Below, piece after piece: positions 8,593 through 64,000 of a DNA stretch of 64,000 nucleotides (its first letter is position 1; the number at the start of each line of letters is the position of its first letter). A program made the translations under genes and the position numbers. Origin of the DNA: Deltaproteobacteria bacterium HGW-Deltaproteobacteria-6 (GTDB taxonomy: Bacteria; Desulfobacterota; Syntrophia; Syntrophales; Smithellaceae); NCBI GenBank assembly GCA_002840435.1, contig PHAT01000002.1, positions 1-64,000 on the forward strand, written 5' to 3'. The notes below the pieces were generated by a model that worked only from the letters and a program-made list of their open reading frames with translations, had not been told where the DNA came from and did not search any database.

Positions 8593-9291
8593 ATGAAAAA
8601 GAATGTTTTGATTTTGATGATCGGCTTGCTGCTGCCGGTTGTCTGGACGACGGCAATGGCCGAAAGGTACCTTCCCGGTAGTCGTTTGACAAGCGTTGTG
8701 AACTGGGGGAACGGCAAGGTCTATTTCTTTAACGGCGACCGGTATATTCGTTATGACGCGGCTGCCGACCGGGCCGATCCCGGTTATCCCAAACCCATCA
8801 ATTCCGAGACATGGCCCGGTATGATCTGGACGGATGGGGTTGATGCCGTAGTCAACTGGGGGAACGGCAAGGTCTATTTCTTCAGAGGCGCTCAGTATAT
8901 CCGTTATGACGTGAGGGCCGACCGGGCCGATCCCGGCTATCCCAAACCCATCAATTCCGAGACGTGGCCCGGCATGATCTGGACGGATGGGGTTGACGCC
9001 GTGGTCAACTGGGGGAACGGCAAGGTCTATTTCTTTAAAGGCGCTCAGTATATCCGTTTTGACGTAAAGGCGGACCGGGCTGATCCCGGTTATCCCAAGC
9101 CCATCAATTCCGAAACGTGGCCCGGCATGATCTGGACGGACGGCATTGACGATGCGGTCAACTGGGGAAACGGCAAAGCCTATTTCTTTAAAGGCAGCCA
9201 GTATATCCGCTATGACTTAAGGGCGGACCGGGCCGATCCGGGTTATCCGAAAACCGTTGATGACAGCACATGGCCGGGCGTTCGCTGGTAG
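8593..9291 (+). CDS. Secreted four-repeat hemopexin-like protein
   Basis: The protein has 232 residues with a signal peptide cut after about residue 23 (TTAMA). The mature part is four near-identical 51-residue repeats, each with VNWGNGKVYFF, GxQYIRYD, ADRADPGYPKPI and WPGMIW. These are hemopexin-type blades, and four of them are the number needed for a closed four-bladed propeller. The start at 8593 sits six bases after AAGGAG; an upstream in-frame ATG at 8554 has no such site. Eukaryotic hemopexin domains bind haem, metals or protein partners; the bacterial ligand is not known. It lies directly behind a two-component system. Confidence 0.88.
   Translation: MKKNVLILMIGLLLPVVWTTAMAERYLPGSRLTSVVNWGNGKVYFFNGDRYIRYDAAADRADPGYPKPINSETWPGMIWTDGVDAVVNWGNGKVYFFRGAQYIRYDVRADRADPGYPKPINSETWPGMIWTDGVDAVVNWGNGKVYFFKGAQYIRFDVKADRADPGYPKPINSETWPGMIWTDGIDDAVNWGNGKAYFFKGSQYIRYDLRADRADPGYPKTVDDSTWPGVRW
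8698..9291 (+). repeat. Four tandem 153-bp coding repeats
   Basis: The GTCAACTGGGG-type unit starts recur at 8698, 8851, 9004 and 9157, exactly 153 bases apart. The central copies are nearly identical at the DNA level, including the wobble bases. This points to recent duplication or gene conversion inside the hemopexin-like gene. Confidence 0.95.
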
Positions 9292-54682: not shown

Positions 54683-55906
54683 ATGACGAAAAAAATCAAA
54701 GTGAAAACAACGCTTGTCGAAATGGACGGCGATGAAATGACCCGCATCATGTGGCAGATGGTGAAAGACAAACTGCTGCTGCCTTATCTGGATATGGATA
54801 TTGATTATTACGATCTGCACGTTAAGCATCGTGACGATACGGATGATCAGGTGACGTTTGACGCCGCCCGCGCGATTCAAAAATACGGCGTCGGCATTAA
54901 ATGCGCCACGATCACTCCCAATGAAGACCGGGTGAAGGAATACAATTTAAAAAAAGCATGGAAAAGTCCCAACGGCACGATCCGCGCCCTGCTGGACGGA
55001 ACGGTTTTCCGGAAGCCCATCCTGGTCAATAATATCCAGCCGGGAGTTTCGGCGTGGAAAAAACCGATTACCATCGGCCGCCACGCGTATGGCGACGTTT
55101 ATAATAATTTTGAGCTGAGCATTCCGCAGGCCGGAAAGCTGGAAGTCGTTTTCACGCCCGCCGACGGCGGCAAGCCGCAAACATCTCTGGTGCAGGATTT
55201 TCCGTCGGCAGGCATCGTTCAGATCAACCATAACCTGGAGCAATCGATTCTGAGTTTTGCCCGGGCGTGTTTCACCTACGCGCTCGCCGAGAAAATTGAT
55301 GTGTGGTTTTCCACGAAGGATACCATTTCCAAAATATATGATGCGGGCTTCCGCGATATTTTTGACCGGGAATTTGAAAATAACTGGAAAGATAAATTTG
55401 CAGCCGCCGGCATTGAATATTTCTTCACGCTGATCGACGACGCGGTCGCGCGCATTATGAAAACGGAAGGCGGCATGCTGTGGGCGCTGAAAAACTATGA
55501 CGGCGATGTGCTGTCGGACATGATTGCTTCCGCCAGCGGATCGCTCGCCATGATGACCTCCGTGCTGGTTTCCCCCAACGGCTGGTTTGAATATGAAGCC
55601 GCGCATGGCACGGTGCAGAAGCATTACTACAAACATCTGAAAGGCGAAGAGACCTCCAGCAATTCGATGGCGTTGATTTTTGCCTGGACCGGCGGTTTGC
55701 GCAAACGCGGTGAACTGGATGGAACACCGGATGTTGTCAGATTCGCCGATCAGGTTGAAAAAGCGGCGCTGGAAACGGTGGAGGGCGGCATCATGACCGG
55801 CGACCTGCTGCTTTTGGCCGAAAAGAGAGCTTCCAACAGAAAAGTGAATACGGAAGAATTCATCGATGCCATCGCGGAGACACTGAAGAAAATAATTAAT
55901 GACTAA
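54683..55906 (+). CDS. icd: Isocitrate dehydrogenase (eukaryotic-type, NADP-like)
   Basis: The 407-residue protein has [38 protein letters not shown] (here [13 protein letters not shown]), [16 protein letters not shown] and [15 protein letters not shown]. These are closer to eukaryotic-type homodimeric NADP enzymes (IDH1-like) than to E. coli Icd. It makes 2-oxoglutarate. With aconitase it forms a two-step operon; the stop overlaps the start of rlmN by eight bases. Coenzyme choice is inferred from family resemblance. Confidence 0.93.
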
Positions 55907-56936
55907 TTTATTGCCCAATCTGCTGGATTTTACCCTCGAGGAGATGGAAGCGTTTATCTCCTCTTCCGGCAAGGAAAAGTTTCGCGCCCGCCAGATCATG
56001 AAATGGCTGCATCAGACAGGCTGTACATCTTTTGACACCATGACGACCTTGTCGCGTGATTTCCGGGGAAAGCTCTCCGCCAATGCGCGGATTTACCGGC
56101 CGGAAATTGTCAAAATTCAGAAATCGCAGGACGGCACGCAAAAAGCGCTGCTGCGGCTGGAGGACGGCCTTTTCATCGAAAGCGTTTTAATCCCCGGGAA
56201 AAGCCATTGGACGATTTGCTTATCGACGCAGGCCGGCTGCGCGATGGGGTGTGAATTTTGCCTGACGGCACGCCAGGGCTTTAAGCGTAACCTGACGCCC
56301 GCGGAAATCGTCGGGCAGCTGATTACCCTGAAGCACAAAACGCCGGATGGCGCGGGCATCAACAACATCGTCATGATGGGTATGGGAGAGCCGCTGGCTA
56401 ACTTCGCAAGTACGGTCAAGTCGATCCGGATCCTTACCTGCGATTTCGGTCTGGGGATGTCCAACCGCCGGATAACGGTTTCCACCTGCGGGCTTGCGCC
56501 GCAAATCATCCAGCTGGGCAAAGACATCTGCATCAATCTGGCCGTATCGCTAAACGCCTCTGATGATGAAACCCGGAATCTGCTCATGCCGGTCAATAAA
56601 AAGTATCCGCTTGCCGCGCTGCTTGCCGCCTGTAAAAAATACCCCATGCCCGGACGGCGTCTGCTCACTTTTGAATATATTCTCATTGACGGCGTGAATT
56701 CATCCCGGGCGGACGCGGAAAAGCTGGCCCGGCTCTTGAAGGATCAGCGCTGCAAATTGAACCTGATTGTCTTTAATGAATATCCCGGATCACCTTATAA
56801 GTCACCGTCCGCAAAAGACGTGGAAGCCTTTCAGCAAATCCTGCTTGACCGGCACTTCACCACCATGCTTCGTAAAAGCAAGGGCAGCGATATCCTTGCC
56901 GCCTGCGGCCAGTTGAGCGGTGCTTTCGGAGCATAA
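55899..56936 (+). CDS. rlmN: 23S rRNA (adenine-2503-C2) methyltransferase
   Basis: The 345-residue radical-SAM protein has CAMGCEFC (Cys114, Cys118, Cys121) for the 4Fe-4S cluster. It also has GMGEPLANF, a late [14 protein letters not shown], and Cys336 in LAACGQL, which would be the methyl-carrying cysteine. RlmN methylates A2503 of 23S rRNA and A37 of some tRNAs. It begins eight bases inside the icd gene and is probably translated by coupling. No defects are seen. Confidence 0.96.
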
Positions 56937-56990: not shown

Positions 56991-57920
56991 TCATCTTTTC
57001 TCCTTCAGGAAGTTTAGATAAGGCTTTGCCGTTTCTTCGGGCTTTTCGATCATCGGGGTATGACCCGTATCTTTCAAAATCACTGATCTGGAAGTTTTCA
57101 GATGCTTTTCCAGGAATGGAACGCCTTCCACATTTACAAGTTTGTCCTGCTCTCCCCATATAATCAGGACCGGTGACGAAATGAGCGGCAGGGCCGGGGC
57201 GAGTGAGAATTTTTCAGGCTGCCAGTCTTTCCATATTTTCCTGTCAAACGCATTGTGCTCGGCCATATAGGCCGCAAATATTTTCTTAAAAGGCGCGGGG
57301 ATGGGGGGTGGTTTTACAAAGATCAACGCCAGAAGATCGTCGTAATCCTTCGCGTTGCTGACCAGCAGGAGATTCCTGCCTTTTTCAATTTGGATGACAA
57401 ACTCGCTTTTCTTCTGCGACGGCACGCCGGCCGGGGCCAGGAGGGCAAGCGTCAGAACTCTCTGTGTGTGTTTTGCTGCGTAGCTTGCGGCAAGAGCGCC
57501 TCCCATTGAATTTCCCGCCATATGGAATTTATCAAGTTTAAGCGCCTCCACAAACCGGTTGATGCGCGCCACCTGGCTTTCCATGCCGTAATGGTCCGCG
57601 GGCACCTGCGAGCTTTCACCGAAACCGGGAATGTCGGGTATGATCAAATGGTAGCCTTTCAAATATTTAGCGAACATGGGCCAGCTGTCCTTGTTGCTGC
57701 CGAATCCGTGAAGGAGGATGACGGTTTCTCCTTTTCCTCCTTCCAGGTAAACGATCCTGTGATTGTCGACCTGGACTTCCTTCTTGGCGAGATCGGCCGC
57801 GCGCCGCTGAGCATCAATCGCTATCTTGAACACCGATTCCGGGAAAAGGACGTAAAATGCCACCAGCAGGGCAGCGGCAGCAATAAGTGTGAGCAATCCA
57901 TACTTCAAGATTTTATTCAT
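56991..57920 (-). CDS. Alpha/beta hydrolase (lipase/esterase-like)
   Basis: The 309-residue protein has an N-terminal membrane anchor (about 7-27) and an alpha/beta hydrolase fold with VILLHGFGSNKDSW (oxyanion region), MAGNSMGGALA (nucleophile Ser138), IIWGEQDKLV (acid) and DTGHTPMIEKPEE (His). The substrate is unknown; relatives include membrane-bound lipases and monoacylglycerol hydrolases. It is convergent with rlmN and ends just left of the repeat-bounded AT-rich island. Confidence 0.9.
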   Translation of the reverse strand: MNKILKYGLLTLIAAAALLVAFYVLFPESVFKIAIDAQRRAADLAKKEVQVDNHRIVYLEGGKGETVILLHGFGSNKDSWPMFAKYLKGYHLIIPDIPGFGESSQVPADHYGMESQVARINRFVEALKLDKFHMAGNSMGGALAASYAAKHTQRVLTLALLAPAGVPSQKKSEFVIQIEKGRNLLLVSNAKDYDDLLALIFVKPPPIPAPFKKIFAAYMAEHNAFDRKIWKDWQPEKFSLAPALPLISSPVLIIWGEQDKLVNVEGVPFLEKHLKTSRSVILKDTGHTPMIEKPEETAKPYLNFLKEKR

Positions 57921-57953
57921 TTTATTTCCTCGCCTTTTATGTTCGTATCGGGT

Positions 57954-58078
57954 CTAACGCACAGATATCGGGTAACCCTGTTTCAAAAAGAGGCTGCAAT
58001 CAGCTGTTGCCTGCTTGCTGCGTTTTTTTGCCGGAAACGGATTGTCCTTTTTCAGCCGCTCGGGCGGATTAAATTTCT
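57954..58078 (-). pseudogene. 3' fragment of the tiny basic protein gene (left repeat copy)
   Basis: The minus strand here encodes KFNPPERLKKDNPFPAKKRS in frame, the same as the end of the intact gene at 61715-61843, then runs on through KQATADCSLFLKQGYPISVR to a stop at 57954. The 5' part is missing and replaced by island sequence. It would be the remnant left by insertion of the island. Confidence 0.7.
58011..58078 (+). repeat. Left copy of exact 68-bp direct repeat (candidate att site)
   Basis: Bases 58011-58078 (beginning CTGCTTGCTGCG, ending GGATTAAATTTCT) are identical to 61718-61785 in the same orientation. The two copies bracket 3.6 kb of AT-rich DNA. The repeat falls in the 3' end of a small gene on the minus strand, the usual place for site-specific integration. 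Confidence 0.95.
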
Positions 58079-58158
58079 GGCAGCAATTTACAAACCATTG
58101 ACAATATCTCCTGATTAAGTTAAATAATTCCATCTTATTATAATAAGAGAGGATTATC

Positions 58159-59508
58159 ATGGGGAGAAAAATAAACATTACTTATTTTACCATCACTATT
58201 ATAATCTATCTTATAACCATATGTAATGTGAGCATATCACTGGCTCAATATAATTCAAATGCAAATATAAGTGATTTTAATATTGATATTAAAAATTTGT
58301 CTACAAAGATAATTGAGGGGATAAAAGGTGAAACAATAGCTAACAAGAAAGATATAGTTATTATTGATTTTTGTACCTCCAGAGGAATAGTAAATAGTGA
58401 CGGAGAATATTTAACGTCAAAGCTTAGCCAATATCTTGTGTCCCAGTCTATTTTCTATAAATACAACATATTAAATATGGACAAAGAGATAAATATTAAG
58501 CAGCAGCTTGTGGAAAAAAATATTAAGCCGATACAATTGGCAGATCCCCAAATATCTGCAAATTTTGGCAGACAAATATTTGCGGATTTAGTCATCACTG
58601 GAAGTCTAAATGAACTAGCGGACAAACGAGGTTATGGCATTTCGGTCAATATAATTAAGACTGACAATGCAACAGTATTAAAGACAATAAATGTTCAATT
58701 TCTGGCTGTATCTTCAAATAACCAGCCAGTTCCGACGGTAGTAACTCCGCGTAACCCACCACTACCTCCAAAAGTTTCATCACCACCTACGACACAGGCT
58801 ACTGAGCCTTCCCCATCAAACGATAATCAATTATCACTATTTCTAGAACGAGCGAAGAAGATTCAAATTGATATTTCCAAATTAAGTGAAAAAATCATAT
58901 CAAAACACCCTTTTGATGTAAATGACCCTTCACAAAACAGGGAAAAAGCATTAGTGATATTTGATGCTTTTATTAAAGACATTAAACCTCTAACCGACGA
59001 GTTGAAGGCCATTCAGAATAAAGATTTTATCGTGCCCAGAAATGCGTTTAGCTGCCGTATTGGTGACCCGCTTCCTAATTATGATGGATTTTTAGTTGAA
59101 GCTGTTTATGATTATAATACCTATAAGGGAATATGGAATATTAAAGATTCAGTACAAGGACAATCGCTCTCAAAAATTACACGAGCAATTGAATGCGAAG
59201 GGCGGTATAGGCTGGTTGAACGAAAGGATTCAGTGGTAGTCTCTGGATTTGATTTATTGGAAACAATCTTTGGGACAACAACCGACTTTATAATGGATAT
59301 AGATATCCTAGCTGGCTTGAAAAGTGCAAGGATGATGCAAGTAAATTATAGAAACGATATAGAACCCACCTTAGCGGGTGCCATTATGAAACATCCCAGT
59401 ATAAAAAAGATCAATCCGAGGGTAGAGTTAAACAAATTTGAATATTCATCAGCAATAAATGGCATGGAGCAAATCGAACTTGCCTATCAAATTTTAAAGC
59501 GGCAATGA
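58159..59508 (+). CDS. Exported FlgO/CsgG-like protein on AT-rich island, unknown
   Basis: The 449-residue protein has a signal peptide (about 1-29). A domain at about 62-185 contains KDIVIIDFCTSRG, LTSKLSQYLVSQ and FADLVITGSLNEL, resembling FlgO/CsgG-type periplasmic assembly proteins. A Pro/Thr-rich linker (about 190-222) leads to a C-terminal half of about 225 residues that I do not recognise. Codon use is strongly AT-biased compared with all genes outside the island. AGAGGA precedes the ATG. It is convergent with the TPR gene, the only other gene between the direct repeats. Confidence 0.75.
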   Translation: MGRKINITYFTITIIIYLITICNVSISLAQYNSNANISDFNIDIKNLSTKIIEGIKGETIANKKDIVIIDFCTSRGIVNSDGEYLTSKLSQYLVSQSIFYKYNILNMDKEINIKQQLVEKNIKPIQLADPQISANFGRQIFADLVITGSLNELADKRGYGISVNIIKTDNATVLKTINVQFLAVSSNNQPVPTVVTPRNPPLPPKVSSPPTTQATEPSPSNDNQLSLFLERAKKIQIDISKLSEKIISKHPFDVNDPSQNREKALVIFDAFIKDIKPLTDELKAIQNKDFIVPRNAFSCRIGDPLPNYDGFLVEAVYDYNTYKGIWNIKDSVQGQSLSKITRAIECEGRYRLVERKDSVVVSGFDLLETIFGTTTDFIMDIDILAGLKSARMMQVNYRNDIEPTLAGAIMKHPSIKKINPRVELNKFEYSSAINGMEQIELAYQILKRQ

Positions 59509-59528
59509 ATAATGCTCTATCTTTTTCT

Positions 59529-61178
59529 TCAATTGCAGGTTTTCTGAAGGCCTTCTTGGGCTTCCACATCTCTAGGATTCAGTTCAAGCATCTTTCGATA
59601 GACATCACATGCCTTGTTATTGTTGTCCATTTTAGTATATGATAGTGCTAGTATTTTCATTGCCTTTACATTTTTAGAATCTATCATAATTAACTCCGTT
59701 GCATAATTGATGGCTTCATCATACTTTTTTAAAATAAAAGCCTTACGGGCGTTAGCCATTAGCTTTTGTTCCTTTTCTGGATCTTCAACGGGAATGACAG
59801 CTCCAGAAAACTTAACCTTTAAGCCTAAAAGAACGCCACATCTTAATATTCCGCCCTCTCCTGGCCGGTATGAAATTCTTACAATAGGGATATTATAGGC
59901 AACAGGTACAGCCTTAGAATAAAAAGTACTGGCCTCTTCGCTCCGCAGGACATGATCTACAACAACAAAAAACTTGTATGATTTTAATTGCTCTGCCCGC
60001 ATCAAAAGGTCTTCATAACCGCCTTTCGCCATTTTTTTAAATAAATCTTTCACGGGATCCTCGCTTTGCGATACCTCACTTTGAACAGTAAGAAGAATCA
60101 TTTCCCTTTCCCGAACATGATTAACCAGCATGTTCTCAGCCTTGGTTCTGTCCTCATGAAGAGATTTAATTGTGACATCTTTATATGAGCTTTCTAATTC
60201 ATTATCAATTTCATCAAGTTTGTTTTTTGCTTTATTTTTCTTTGATATTGCTTGCCCAATATTATTTTGATAGTCGTGATCTATTTCAGTCAGGAGTTGG
60301 AGCTGTCTTAAATTGTAGTCTTGAGTCTGCTTGTACATATTCTTGATAGACTCTTTATTTTTGACATTATCTGCAGTAAATTTATCGATCATTTCTCCTT
60401 TGTCAGGATCTAGCAAGACTTTTGCAGAGAATGTTCCAAGATCGGTCTTTGTTGTATTTTTCTGATCAGTTTTATCAGTATGGCTGACTTTTGCGAATTC
60501 AGGATATATCCTGTATTGCTGAAGCATATAAAAGTCTTTAAGGTCACTTGACATTTGTGTTACGGGATCTGTTTCAAAAGACTCAACCCTGCCGGCTTCT
60601 GTCGCCCTTATAATATCGCTGACAACCTTGAGCTGTTTTACTGTTGTGTCACCTGTGATAAAAGATGGCATATAGTTTTCACTTAAGAAGTGTTTAGATG
60701 ATTTATCAAGTTTTCGGTTAATATCTTTTCTAGATTCTTTAAAAATATCGGCATTGGTCTTTGAAAGAAGAAGATAGCCTGTTGGAATGGCCTTTAATCG
60801 ATTTTTATAAATTTCTCTTACGCTATCTATTGTTTCGTCAATTTGTTTCAATACTCGAATAATTTGAATTTTCCTATCGAGGAGTGATTTGTATCTCAGC
60901 AGTCTTTCATTAGTGTCTTGGAGTTGGGATACATAACTGAAATACAACTCATCCCATGCTCGGTTTTTTTCTATTGATTCTCTAAGAAGTTTATTGCTTT
61001 CCCTTGCTATTTCTTCGGTTTTATCCGTTTGCAAAATATTTTGTTCTCTAAAGTTTTCGACATCATATAATAATTGCTCTTTATTTGTAAAAGTTTTCCA
61101 ACCATTCTGAGCATTTGCGGAACTAAAAGAAATAATTATCAAAATAAAGGTTAAAATGATGCAAAATCTGGATTTCAT
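59529..61178 (-). CDS. Exported coiled-coil/TPR protein on AT-rich island, unknown
   Basis: The protein has 549 residues with a signal peptide (about 1-24). Long charged helices and coiled coils span most of it (about 30-400), then a beta-rich stretch follows (YNIPIVRISYRPG, about 433-460). A C-terminal TPR pair (ARKAFILKKYDEAINYATEL and YRKMLELNPRDVEAQ) completes it. The ATG at 61178 lies seven bases after AGGAG; an ATG at 61184 is too close. AT-rich like its neighbour. It may form a periplasmic complex with the FlgO-like protein, inferred only from their joint presence on the island. Confidence 0.75.
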   Translation of the reverse strand: MKSRFCIILTFILIIISFSSANAQNGWKTFTNKEQLLYDVENFREQNILQTDKTEEIARESNKLLRESIEKNRAWDELYFSYVSQLQDTNERLLRYKSLLDRKIQIIRVLKQIDETIDSVREIYKNRLKAIPTGYLLLSKTNADIFKESRKDINRKLDKSSKHFLSENYMPSFITGDTTVKQLKVVSDIIRATEAGRVESFETDPVTQMSSDLKDFYMLQQYRIYPEFAKVSHTDKTDQKNTTKTDLGTFSAKVLLDPDKGEMIDKFTADNVKNKESIKNMYKQTQDYNLRQLQLLTEIDHDYQNNIGQAISKKNKAKNKLDEIDNELESSYKDVTIKSLHEDRTKAENMLVNHVREREMILLTVQSEVSQSEDPVKDLFKKMAKGGYEDLLMRAEQLKSYKFFVVVDHVLRSEEASTFYSKAVPVAYNIPIVRISYRPGEGGILRCGVLLGLKVKFSGAVIPVEDPEKEQKLMANARKAFILKKYDEAINYATELIMIDSKNVKAMKILALSYTKMDNNNKACDVYRKMLELNPRDVEAQEGLQKTCN

Positions 61179-61714
61179 CTTCATTCTCCTTTTGGTATCT
61201 ACTTTATGAAAGTATTATACGATAAAATGGCTGCTTGAATTCTGATGACGATTTTTTAATAACACATTCAGGGGTATAAATTAAAATATTCATTTTTTCT
61301 TTTTATAAAAATCTGCTGAAATTGCGCTTGACAGGCAAAATTTTACATAATCATTGAGAATTGTCAATGTTCAATTTAGTTAAGTCAAACATTTTATTCA
61401 CATATTTAGCTTTGAAGTTTGTTGTTTCTCTTGTAGCTCGATTTACTTGCAGTGTTGCAGCATTTGTTTGATGAGATCTATTCTGACCATGAATTTTAAT
61501 AATTATGCAGGTATTAACTAACATTTAGCAGGGTTATTATCAAAAGTTGTCGATTTGATAAAAACAAGGGGGGGACGGTGATTGCTGAGTCTGCGTAAAC
61601 AACATTTTGTGGATATTTTCTACAAACACTTAATTACCAAGTGTTTCATAAATCTAATATTTCTGGACAATATATTTGTCTGAGCAAGAATATAAATTGA
61701 CGTTTATGGCCCTT
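61179..61714. other. AT-rich non-coding right part of the island
   Basis: About 530 bases without a convincing frame. It contains the promoter side of the TPR gene and a perfect inverted repeat AAACACTT/AAGTGTTT (61624-61631, 61639-61646). No integrase fragment was recognised. Confidence 0.5.
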
Positions 61715-61843
61715 CTACTGCTTGCTGCGTTTTTTTGCCGGAAACGGATTGTCCTTTTTCAGCCGCTCGGGCGGATTAAATTTCTTTTCGCGCAGCAGCC
61801 GTGAGATGTCTTTTTGTCTGCGGGTATTTTTCTGATTAGCCAT
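61715..61843 (-). CDS. Tiny basic protein (42 aa), integration target
   Basis: ATG at 61843 opens a 42-codon frame beginning MANQKNTRRQKDISRLLREK and ending with the KFNPPERLKKDNPFPAKKRS block shared with the left repeat copy, then a TAG immediately at the repeat edge. It is very basic, with 16 Lys/Arg. It begins 20 bases after the PII-like gene on the same strand and probably belongs to the RND operon. There is no strong ribosome site (GGTGATG only). Function unknown; the C-terminus may have been altered by the island. Confidence 0.6.
   Translation of the reverse strand: MANQKNTRRQKDISRLLREKKFNPPERLKKDNPFPAKKRSKQ
61718..61785 (+). repeat. Right copy of exact 68-bp direct repeat (candidate att site)
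   Basis: This is identical over 68 bases to 58011-58078. Here the repeat is the 3' end of an intact small gene, while at the left copy only the fragment remains. Excision between the copies would remove 3,707 bp. Confidence 0.95.
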
Positions 61844-61863
61844 AACATCACCATGCGCGAACG

Positions 61864-62154
61864 TTAAATACATTCTTCCAGAGGAAAGGTAAACGCCCTC
61901 AGGCCGGCGCGTGGATGCGCTTCCTTCAGCTTCTTCGCGAGTTCGACAAGCTTCTGAATCTCATCATCCGGCACCCCCAGTAAAAGGGTATTGTTTCTGC
62001 CGGGCCAGTAATGCGTGTCCAGTTTGGGTTCGCTTTCCCGGCCTTCGCCCGTCGCACCATGCATTTTTGTATAAGATTTGTAACCGGCTTTTTTAAAGGC
62101 TGCTGTGATGATTTCATCGGAGGATTCGGCATAAACAACAAAAAACATTTTCAT
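61864..62154 (-). CDS. PII-like signalling protein beside an RND pump
   Basis: The 97-residue protein has the ferredoxin-like PII fold pattern: MKMFFVVYAESSDEIITAAF at the start, a T-loop-like GATGEGRESEPKLDTHYWPG, and NTLLLGVPDDEIQKLVELAKKL. Similar PII-like proteins are found beside heavy-metal or AcrB-type RND transporters in other bacteria. GGAGGTG lies six bases before the ATG at 62154. It probably regulates or senses conditions for the pump. The ligand is unknown. Confidence 0.75.
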   Translation of the reverse strand: MKMFFVVYAESSDEIITAAFKKAGYKSYTKMHGATGEGRESEPKLDTHYWPGRNNTLLLGVPDDEIQKLVELAKKLKEAHPRAGLRAFTFPLEECI

Positions 62155-62255
62155 TCTGGCACCTCCAGGAGCATCCATACGTTATTTTCTAAAAACTCTG
62201 ATTCTGAACGCATAGCGTAAACAAAGCCTGCGGCCGAATGGTCCCGTAAAAGGGG

Positions 62256-62293
62256 GGCGCAGTAGTCCGCAGCAAGCTGCGGACTACTGCGCC
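62256..62293. other. 18-bp perfect palindrome overlapping the RND stop codon
   Basis: GGCGCAGTAGTCCGCAGC (62256-62273) and GCTGCGGACTACTGCGCC (62276-62293) pair perfectly with a two-base centre. The TAG of the RND gene (62286-62284) is inside one arm. No T-run follows directly. It may stabilise the mRNA end or limit read-through into the PII-like gene. Confidence 0.85.
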
Positions 62294-64000
62294 GGTGGTT
62301 TTTCAGCAAGTTCCGCTTTTTTGCTTTTTCTGTGTTTGAATTTTTCCTGCCAGTCATCAAAAATATCGTAGGCGGACGGAATAACGATCAAGGTCAAAAC
62401 CAGTGATGTGAGGAGTCCGCCAATCACCGCGATACCCATCGGGGCGCGTGTTTCCGCCCCTTCTCCGACGCCGAGAGCAATCGGCAGCATGCCGAAAACC
62501 ATCGCAAACGTCGTCATGAGAATCGGCCGCATCCGGACGGGTCCCGCCTGAAGGATCGCTTCACGGCGCGCCGTGCCCCGGCCCCGCAAAACATTGGTAT
62601 AGTCTACCAGCAGGATGGCATTTTTCTTTACCAGACCCATCAGCAGAATCAAACCGATAAAGCTGAAAATGTTCAGGGTCTTGCCGGTGATAAACAGGGC
62701 GCCGAAAGCGCCGACAAAAGACAACGGCATGGAAAGCAGCACGGTGATCGGATGAACAAAACTTTCAAATTGCGATGCCAGAATCATGTAAGCCATGATG
62801 ATGCCCAGCATCAGGGCAAAAAGCAGATAACCGAAAGATTCGCTCATCGTATCAGCCATGCCCTGATATTTGGGTAAATAATCGGAAGGCAGAATTTTAC
62901 CGGCAATGGCATCGAGCTCACCTTTCGCCTGTCCCAGTGGTTTTCCTTCCAGCGAAGCGAATATGGTAATGGCCCTTTGCCGGTCAACACGGTTGATGAC
63001 GCTGGGGCCGGTGCCTTCCTCTACTTTAACCACGTTAGCCAGCTCCACCAGCTTTCCATCGCGGGCGCGCACGAAAATACGCTGCATGCTCCTTGAACTT
63101 TCCCGGTCTTCCGGATTGAGCCGGACCCGGATATCGTACCGTTTTCCCTTGAGTTCGTCCTTGTATCTCGCGATGTCCAATTCGCCGCTGATCAGCAGGT
63201 TGATGGCCTCGGCAACCGTGGCCACATCCACGCCCAAAGCGGCTGCCCGGTCGCGGTCGATGTAAACCTTGAATTCCGGCTTGCCGACTTCCAGCGACGT
63301 ATCCACATCCACGATTCCCGGCAGCTTGGAAAACTCGGACGTGATCTGCTTGGCATAGTTCTGCATGGCGCCAAGGTCCTGACCGCGGATGCTGTATTGA
63401 ATCGGCACATTCCTGATGCCGCCGCCGACAACTGAAAGATCTTCGGCGGAGACTTTCAATCCCGGAATTTCCCGCAGTTTCGTTCGCGCTATTTTCTTAA
63501 TGTCTTCCTGGCTGTTTTTACGCTGCGCTTTGGGCGTCAGGTTGATCATCATCCTGGCGCGATTGGCATACCCTCCGTATCCCTGAACGTAAAAGACGGA
63601 TTTGACGCCCGGGATTTCCTGCATGATGGCTTCCGTTTTTCCCAGATACTGTTCGATCTGATCAACGGAATAATCAATCGGTGCTTCCATGCGAACAATA
63701 AATACACCCTGATCTTCAGGCGGTGTGAATTCCTTTCCGATGAATTTCGTCAGACCGATACTTAAAATAAAAATCATCAAGGCGCCTGCCAGCACGGTTT
63801 TACGGTACCCCAGTGTAAATTCCAGCGTTGCGCGGTAAAATAACTCCAGCTTGCCGTAATAATGTTCGGCATAATCGCTGATTCTCGTCCAGAGGTTCTT
63901 CCTGCCGCCCGTGTTTGCGGCCAGAGGATTGGGTATGGATTTTTTATGCGACTTGAGGAAAATCGACGCCATCATCGGCGTCAGCGTAAAGGATACCAGA
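62284..64000 (-). CDS. RND efflux transporter, C-terminal part (cut by right edge)
   Basis: The open frame continues past the right edge: before an ATG at 63975 it already encodes the conserved LVSFTLTP. About 572 residues of a protein of about 1030 are seen. Visible are the second periplasmic region (GYGGYANRARMMINLTPK, VDRQRAITIFASLEG) and the last six membrane helices with GIIMAYMILASQFESF, MPLSFVGAFGALF, LLMGLVKKNAILLVDYTN and RMRPILMTTFAMVFGMLP. These fit hydrophobe/amphiphile efflux pumps (HAE1/AcrB-like). It ends with a short Lys-rich tail. The substrate is not clear. Confidence 0.95.
   Translation of the reverse strand, partial: LVSFTLTPMMASIFLKSHKKSIPNPLAANTGGRKNLWTRISDYAEHYYGKLELFYRATLEFTLGYRKTVLAGALMIFILSIGLTKFIGKEFTPPEDQGVFIVRMEAPIDYSVDQIEQYLGKTEAIMQEIPGVKSVFYVQGYGGYANRARMMINLTPKAQRKNSQEDIKKIARTKLREIPGLKVSAEDLSVVGGGIRNVPIQYSIRGQDLGAMQNYAKQITSEFSKLPGIVDVDTSLEVGKPEFKVYIDRDRAAALGVDVATVAEAINLLISGELDIARYKDELKGKRYDIRVRLNPEDRESSRSMQRIFVRARDGKLVELANVVKVEEGTGPSVINRVDRQRAITIFASLEGKPLGQAKGELDAIAGKILPSDYLPKYQGMADTMSESFGYLLFALMLGIIMAYMILASQFESFVHPITVLLSMPLSFVGAFGALFITGKTLNIFSFIGLILLMGLVKKNAILLVDYTNVLRGRGTARREAILQAGPVRMRPILMTTFAMVFGMLPIALGVGEGAETRAPMGIAVIGGLLTSLVLTLIVIPSAYDIFDDWQEKFKHRKSKKAELAEKPPAQ

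Follow-up and report, generated by a model that had tools for sequence, protein, structure and literature searches.

Transfer hotspots that hold no mobile element are common, and homologous recombination at their flanks has been proposed to explain them (Oliveira et al. 2017, PMC5635113). Homology-facilitated illegitimate recombination has been proposed for displaced gene ends in the type VI secretion system (T6SS) effector-immunity arrays of Vibrio cholerae (PMC5361080) and for replaced variable segments in Escherichia coli (PMC2884548), and has also been linked to conjugation in E. coli (PMC3240628). In a Streptomyces strain, rlmN is occupied by AICE03, an actinomycete integrative and conjugative element (AICE) flanked by 11-nucleotide (nt) repeats (PMC9513070). 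All of these statements reflect excerpts of the articles cited. Here, we describe an AT-rich block in the first 64,000 nt (hereafter, the window) of contig PHAT01000002.1 from Deltaproteobacteria bacterium HGW-Deltaproteobacteria-6. The block is enclosed by an exact 68-nt direct repeat at the 3′ end of a small gene, and lies in an interval bordered by rlmN and a P-II-like gene. We find that the insertion is real, recent-looking, and located in a family-wide exchange spot. We give an even chance to the view that the block is a horizontally acquired two-gene cargo, inserted at the small-gene 3′ end via homology-anchored joining.

Integron gene cassettes are small cargo units behind a fixed point, as is the case here. 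Unlike those cassettes, the block has no integrase near it; no search aimed at attC-like sites was made. As in the V. cholerae and E. coli cases, the cargo is anchored by a conserved gene, a resident 3′ end stands behind the cargo, there is no recombinase, and the novel DNA is one-sided. Unlike the V. cholerae T6SS arrays, the border gene is small and conserved rather than a toxin, the displaced piece is a perfect 68-base-pair (bp) copy, and the donor and its uptake are what we infer. The locus resembles the hotspots of Oliveira et al. 2017 in its conserved core flanks, changing content, and lack of an integrase, and differs from them in spanning species and genera of one order and in having gene-end fragments as junction traces. 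With AICE03 it shares direct repeats at the target gene, and rlmN as a target; unlike AICE03, which has its own integrase and excisionase (PMC9513070), it has neither. A literature search for islands lacking an integrase found no paper, and none of the titles and abstract beginnings listed for a further search presented a matching case. For rlmN as an island site, the excerpt of PMC11983580 concerns an RlmN-like resistance enzyme and is not relevant. The mechanism that we favor is of a known kind; the locus and the cargo are new.

An AT-rich block between two copies of a gene end

The two identical 68-nt copies are in the same orientation, at 58011-58078 and 61718-61785 (spacing 3707), and enclose a block of 3,639 nt with no assigned strand (58079-61717). 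The G+C content of the block is 34% (0.340), compared with 0.510 for the remainder of the window, in which the lowest 3,639-nt stretch starting before 54 kb has a G+C of 0.446. In 2-kb windows across 480 kb of the contig (mean G+C 0.501, standard deviation 0.038), the minimum (0.341) falls inside the island and the second-lowest value (0.361), outside it, lies near 314 kb. These coordinates, the identity of the copies, and the contrast in composition all bear out the original prediction, which was made from the letters of the window. Its placement of both copies in the 3′ part of one small minus-strand gene (61715-61843), intact on the right and fragmentary on the left, is likewise correct.

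The original prediction had also named two observations that would speak against it, a 68-mer common throughout the genome and the same block at the same place in relatives. Neither was seen. In the organism's own genome (4,086,018 bases), the 68-mer is present at full length only at these 2 sites, and the runner-up match by score is 16 nt. Within the window, the exact repeats next in length are of 32 nt and belong to a tandem array of 153-nt direct repeats (8701-9200; array at about 8700-9200).

We also scanned 480 kb of the contig for exact repeats of at least 18 nt, separated by 300 nt to 20 kb, dropping words that occurred at least 8 times. This exact-repeat scan yielded no further repeat pair around AT-rich DNA. 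The remaining pairs comprised an array, the tandem array, two 20-nt pairs, and one 89-nt pair. The first of these, at 473797-476008 of the contig (C2; L205:13797-16008), has the repeat GTCGCGCCCCGCGCGGGCGCGTGGATTGAAAC and is what we take to be a CRISPR-type array (clustered regularly interspaced short palindromic repeats). The 89-nt direct repeat is intergenic and 98% identical, lies at about 417.9 and 420.6 kb of the contig (L202:17929-18017 and L203:556-644), and flanks 2.6 kb of DNA in which the G+C is normal and about two genes are present.

The small target gene

The target of the insertion is a small gene on the minus strand (61715-61843), encoding a basic protein of 42 amino acids with a conserved N-terminal half, about MAGQKTTRRQKDISRLLREKK, and a variable C-terminal half. 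The repeat ends immediately ahead of the stop codon. The right copy (61718-61785, minus strand) forms the final 68 nt ahead of the stop codon of the intact gene; a TAG contributed from the island side follows, and the protein ends KKRSKQ*. The left copy (58011-58078, minus strand) is a displaced 3′-end fragment with no stop codon at that point, and reads through as KKRSKQATADCSLFLKQGYPISVR*. When the left copy is read as a joined empty site, the frame extends for 18 codons and stops 33 bases before the neighboring hydrolase gene. Small proteins of near relatives end KKRSK*, KKRGK*, KKRGR*, and similar. The repeated segment, in the poorly conserved C-terminal part, is unusual as a standard attachment site. 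A tRNA gene, as an alternative target, is absent from the 64-kb window.

Matches to the small gene were found in 26 of 58 other genomes (E up to 1e-3). Among 26 relatives' loci, most of them taken from around a match to P-II or to the small gene, 17 have the small gene and 14 of those 17 have the adjoining P-II-like gene. Six near relatives (G004, G005, G007, G008, G013, and G015) have a P-II gene but no small gene. The sister species G012 has, just behind rlmN and near a contig end, 42 nt of the small-gene 3′ end (34/42 identical) but not the conserved N-terminal half. The 42–amino acid protein has no Pfam, NCBIfam, or PHROG match and, often standing beside a P-II-like gene, is possibly a member of an overlooked small protein family of the order.

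The interval between rlmN and the P-II-like gene

The island lies between two conserved borders: rlmN on the left (55899-56936, plus strand) and the P-II-like gene on the right (61864-62178, minus strand). Using one genome per species, we find that the acn-icd-rlmN and small gene–P-II–AcrB flanks are syntenic in the family wherever contigs reach, and that the content between them differs among most lineages, with G004, G007, and G015 sharing the same content. The interval is smallest in the most compact genomes, with about 340-380 bp from rlmN to the small gene, and at the other extreme reaches about 7 kb. Elsewhere, the genes in the interval, named by eye, include sensor kinases, lipoproteins, rubrerythrin-like genes, and others. 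The locus has features of a transfer hotspot, namely conserved flanks and variable content, with no integrase near the spot in the organism's own genome. A perfect 18-bp inverted repeat with a 2-nt loop (62256-62293) lies between the P-II-like and AcrB genes.

To the left of the island is an alpha/beta hydrolase gene (56991-57920, minus strand). The closest relative found, G012, has an rlmN that is 95% identical, and its hydrolase homologue (85% identical) is on a different contig. Only the reading frame aligns by blastn, as if the hydrolase gene had moved as a bare gene. Judging from this comparison, the hydrolase gene and the AT-rich block both seem to have been added in this lineage.

Displaced gene ends at rlmN in other genomes

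Displaced gene ends are also present at the other border of the interval. Of 117 rlmN loci, 100 included the end of rlmN plus 150 nt or more of following sequence. A second rlmN 3′-end fragment (E up to 1e-3) lay downstream on the same strand at 8 of these 100 loci, compared with 0/100 on the opposite strand and 0/39 with the rlmN 5′ end as the query. Six of the eight cases are convincing or fair. We discounted L228, where the match (72 nt, 79%) lacks the end, and L252, where the match (32 nt, 84%) is 8.8 kb distant and follows genes that look like core genes.

The repeats at rlmN span 22 to 168 nt. They comprise 22 nt in G032, a weak case; 41 nt in G070; two pieces of about 50 nt each in G072; 128 nt at 96% in G009; and 168 nt at 89% in G151, where the match extends past the stop codon. 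In G020, 28 nt are exact and are then followed by two different RlmN C-termini, so the copies look like two alleles. Since four of the six cases are in one genus, a cautious count is three or more independent events.

The blocks between rlmN and the fragment measure 0.4 to 6.2 kb, and their G+C is below that of rlmN in all cases, barely so in two. Their cargo includes, by Pfam, a nucleotidase-type phosphoesterase, a BrnA antitoxin, a MntA/HepT-type pair, and an HNH protein and, by eye, a porin, lipoproteins, MarR-EmrAB, and histidine kinases. We noticed no recombinase in these blocks (six proteins searched in Pfam, the others by eye). In G070 (L150, 1772-2056 of the reversed stretch), 365 nt separate the stop codon from the fragment and hold a single BrnA-type antitoxin gene, an arrangement that is almost cassette-like.

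A state close to an empty site is seen beside G151. In its relative G154, the DNA that follows the G151 fragment starts 0.24 kb after rlmN, so that G154 gives an approximate picture of the unfilled state; the junction itself aligns poorly. By rpoB, G150 is closest to G151 (95.1%) and G154 is next (93.4%). The intact rlmN 3′ end of G151 follows G150, and its fragment shares marks of G154 yet is 92.1% identical to G150 versus 91.1% to G154.

Recombinases and attachment sites

The original prediction had noted that no integrase lies inside the block. This is confirmed: no recombinase family is among the matches of either island protein, and the window has no PF00589 match. The genome as a whole has seven PF00589 matches, six of them above the cut-off, and only one is on this contig (C2:485232; 485 kb). 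In 28 genomes, many with short contigs and G151 not among them, none of the PF00589 matches listed is closer than 20 kb to rlmN, and the nearest tyrosine-recombinase matches among them are 26 and 36 kb away.

Attachment sites of a donor element were sought in several collections. The 20-nt core of the 68-mer had no exact match in viral contigs, and the small-gene 3′ region had no match in phages. A pattern for an rlmN-type element attachment site (attP) had no exact match in viral contigs and none in phages; plasmids gave four short matches, one of them within an annotated rlmN. We therefore rejected an element with an rlmN-type or 68-mer attP as a candidate, given that viral contigs and phages yielded nothing. 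Among the features typical of integrase-type genomic islands and integrative mobilizable elements, direct repeats at both ends, one of which restores the target gene, are present, and a recombinase of the island's own is absent. The original interpretation stands in part: the structure looks like a gene-end insertion, but for site-specific integration no recombinase, attP, or empty site with one uninterrupted 68-mer was found.

Cargo genes

The block carries two convergent genes, orf449 (58159-59508, plus strand) and orf551 (59529-61184, minus strand). Both putative exported proteins start with hydrophobic, export-signal-like stretches, as judged by eye. We find no Pfam match for orf449, only a weak LpoB match far under the cut-off. 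In 155 genomes of the order, the organism's own included, orf449 has weak matches in five others, mostly over residues 33-196 at 23-30% identity; one of the five, G150, matches residues 166-417 at 20% identity. The orf551 product has long predicted helices and a tetratricopeptide repeat (TPR) at its C-terminal end, and is matched in one other genome of the order, G129, over the TPR part only. Beyond the TPR, no relative (E up to 1e-5) was among the matches listed for the 154 other genomes, at up to 9 candidates per genome. Single-sequence structure prediction was poor, with a mean predicted local distance difference test (pLDDT) score of 35 for orf449 and of 52 for orf551, only parts of which exceed 80; residues 471-550 of orf551 are predicted with block means of at least 89.

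By tblastn, plasmids and phages gave no match to orf551, and plasmids none to orf449; in viral contigs and genome contigs, where the search reaches only close relatives, neither had a confirmed relative. A phage or plasmid origin of the cargo was rejected on the lack of matches for orf551 (plasmids and phages) and orf449 (plasmids; phages not searched). We also rejected a defense cargo (no PADLOC match up to E 1) and a structured RNA in 57000-63000 (no Rfam match up to E 0.1). By sequence, the two cargo proteins are nearly orphans: none of the collections searched contains a close relative.

Each cargo gene is preceded by a promoter-like element: TTGACA-16-TAAAAT ahead of orf551 (61340-61367, minus strand) and a near twin ahead of orf449 (58098-58125, plus strand). 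The twins are identical at 22/30 positions, a value equaled by 17/2000 shuffles of both upstream regions, and the pattern built from both sites, chosen after they were seen, is found nowhere else in the genome. The stretch has 19 promoter-like sites compared with 14.8 after shuffling. Because the pattern was picked post hoc and the site count is barely above that of shuffled sequence, the matching promoters are suggestive only. The cargo genes are probably expressed from these predicted promoters, as envelope proteins.

How the block may have arrived

Homology-facilitated illegitimate recombination would account for the structure as follows. Most likely, the cell would have taken up DNA in which the cargo stood behind a small-gene 3′ end. 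This incoming DNA would have recombined homologously at the small-gene/P-II side, the presumed anchor, and its opposite end would have been joined illegitimately within the resident gene, 68 nt before the alleles diverge. The newcomer's 3′ end and stop codon would then complete the gene, and the resident 3′ end, displaced beyond the cargo, would be the left copy. A mirror case would give the same end structure: the block would be resident, and the newcomer would be the hydrolase gene plus a small-gene end, anchored at rlmN. One-sided recombination of this kind does not depend on a dedicated enzyme, would leave variable fragments of one or the other flanking gene, and accounts for the ordinary cargo. 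The displaced gene end behind cargo is present both here and in the rlmN cases, with the left copy here presumably the resident one. A ComEC homologue in the organism's own genome permits, but does not show, DNA uptake.

Several points weigh against this account. The search that finds ComEC is also positive in 10/14 control genomes, including E. coli, so ComEC alone is no proof of competence. None of the related genomes has one uninterrupted 68-mer joining the flanks, and no donor with the small gene plus the cargo was found among genomes of the order, genome contigs, or viral contigs. Identity over 68 bp calls for a donor that was very close, or for a copy that came from the host. In the G151 comparison, neither allele is clearly foreign, and both copies are alike beyond the stop codon. 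In the four rlmN cases of one genus, the repeats start 44-54 nt ahead of the last base of the stop codon (blastn), a spread of about 10 nt; these cases may go back to a single old event or to a recombination point that is fixed. Where measured, homology-facilitated illegitimate recombination is rare, according to the excerpt of PMC5361080.

The main rival is a Campbell-type, site-specific integration of a small circular element, with the integrase acting in trans or since lost and the 68 bp as the shared attachment segment. Gene 3′ ends are common integrase targets, and an exact direct repeat at such an end, a gene restored on one side, and a compact block are what this explanation would lead us to expect. 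The PF00589 matches elsewhere in the genome and the narrow start points of the four one-genus rlmN repeats also fit, and the Streptomyces AICE in rlmN (PMC9513070) is a reason to retain this rival. However, the island has no recombinase, and the sole PF00589 match on the contig is 485 kb along. A 68-bp attP would have to equal a sequence that is already different in the sister species, and neither the core of the 68-mer nor the gene 3′ region was recovered from viral contigs and phages, respectively. The rlmN repeats vary in length, with no listed integrase within 20 kb of rlmN in the 28 genomes, and separate integrases, none of which was seen, would be needed for the rlmN end and the small-gene end. 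We regard site-specific integration as possible, if doubtful. The two copies might instead be a duplication of 68 bp of host target, produced by a staggered break with fill-in or by template switching, with the block end-joined and the right stop codon gained by chance. Perfectly identical copies with abrupt ends agree with this, as do a variable, species-specific repeat, expected of two copies that are both the host's own, and a near-palindrome on the left junction (two 10-nt arms, 90%). Conversely, the G020 copies look like different alleles, the immediate stop codon would need luck (3/64 codons), and no bacterial transposon is known to produce 68-bp duplications. We consider a target duplication unlikely.

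Short exact repeats are places where assemblers can misjoin, and the genome is a draft (53 contigs, 4.16% contamination). An episome or strain variant that shares the 68-mer could therefore have been set in line by the assembler. This we judge very unlikely: no replication gene is among the matches of either island protein, the contig has 540,596 bases, and the same kind of displaced gene end is found in other assemblies. A broader proposal is that recombinase-less cargo modules, each with its own gene-end mimic, insert precisely into conserved genes at their 3′ ends (in rlmN and in the small gene) throughout the order, by an undescribed process of which the island is one product; this, too, we think improbable. 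Homology-facilitated illegitimate recombination fits somewhat better than site-specific integration, because repeat lengths vary, no recombinase was seen, and the cargo is ordinary; neither is proven. The block was probably acquired in an ordinary way, with no integrase involved.

Exchange hotspots free of mobile elements are common, and the joining step that fills them is usually inferred rather than seen. That step leaves its traces in the displaced gene-end fragments that stand behind changing cargo. The interval between rlmN and the small gene provides, for this order, a set of loci where more strains can separate site-specific from homology-anchored models.

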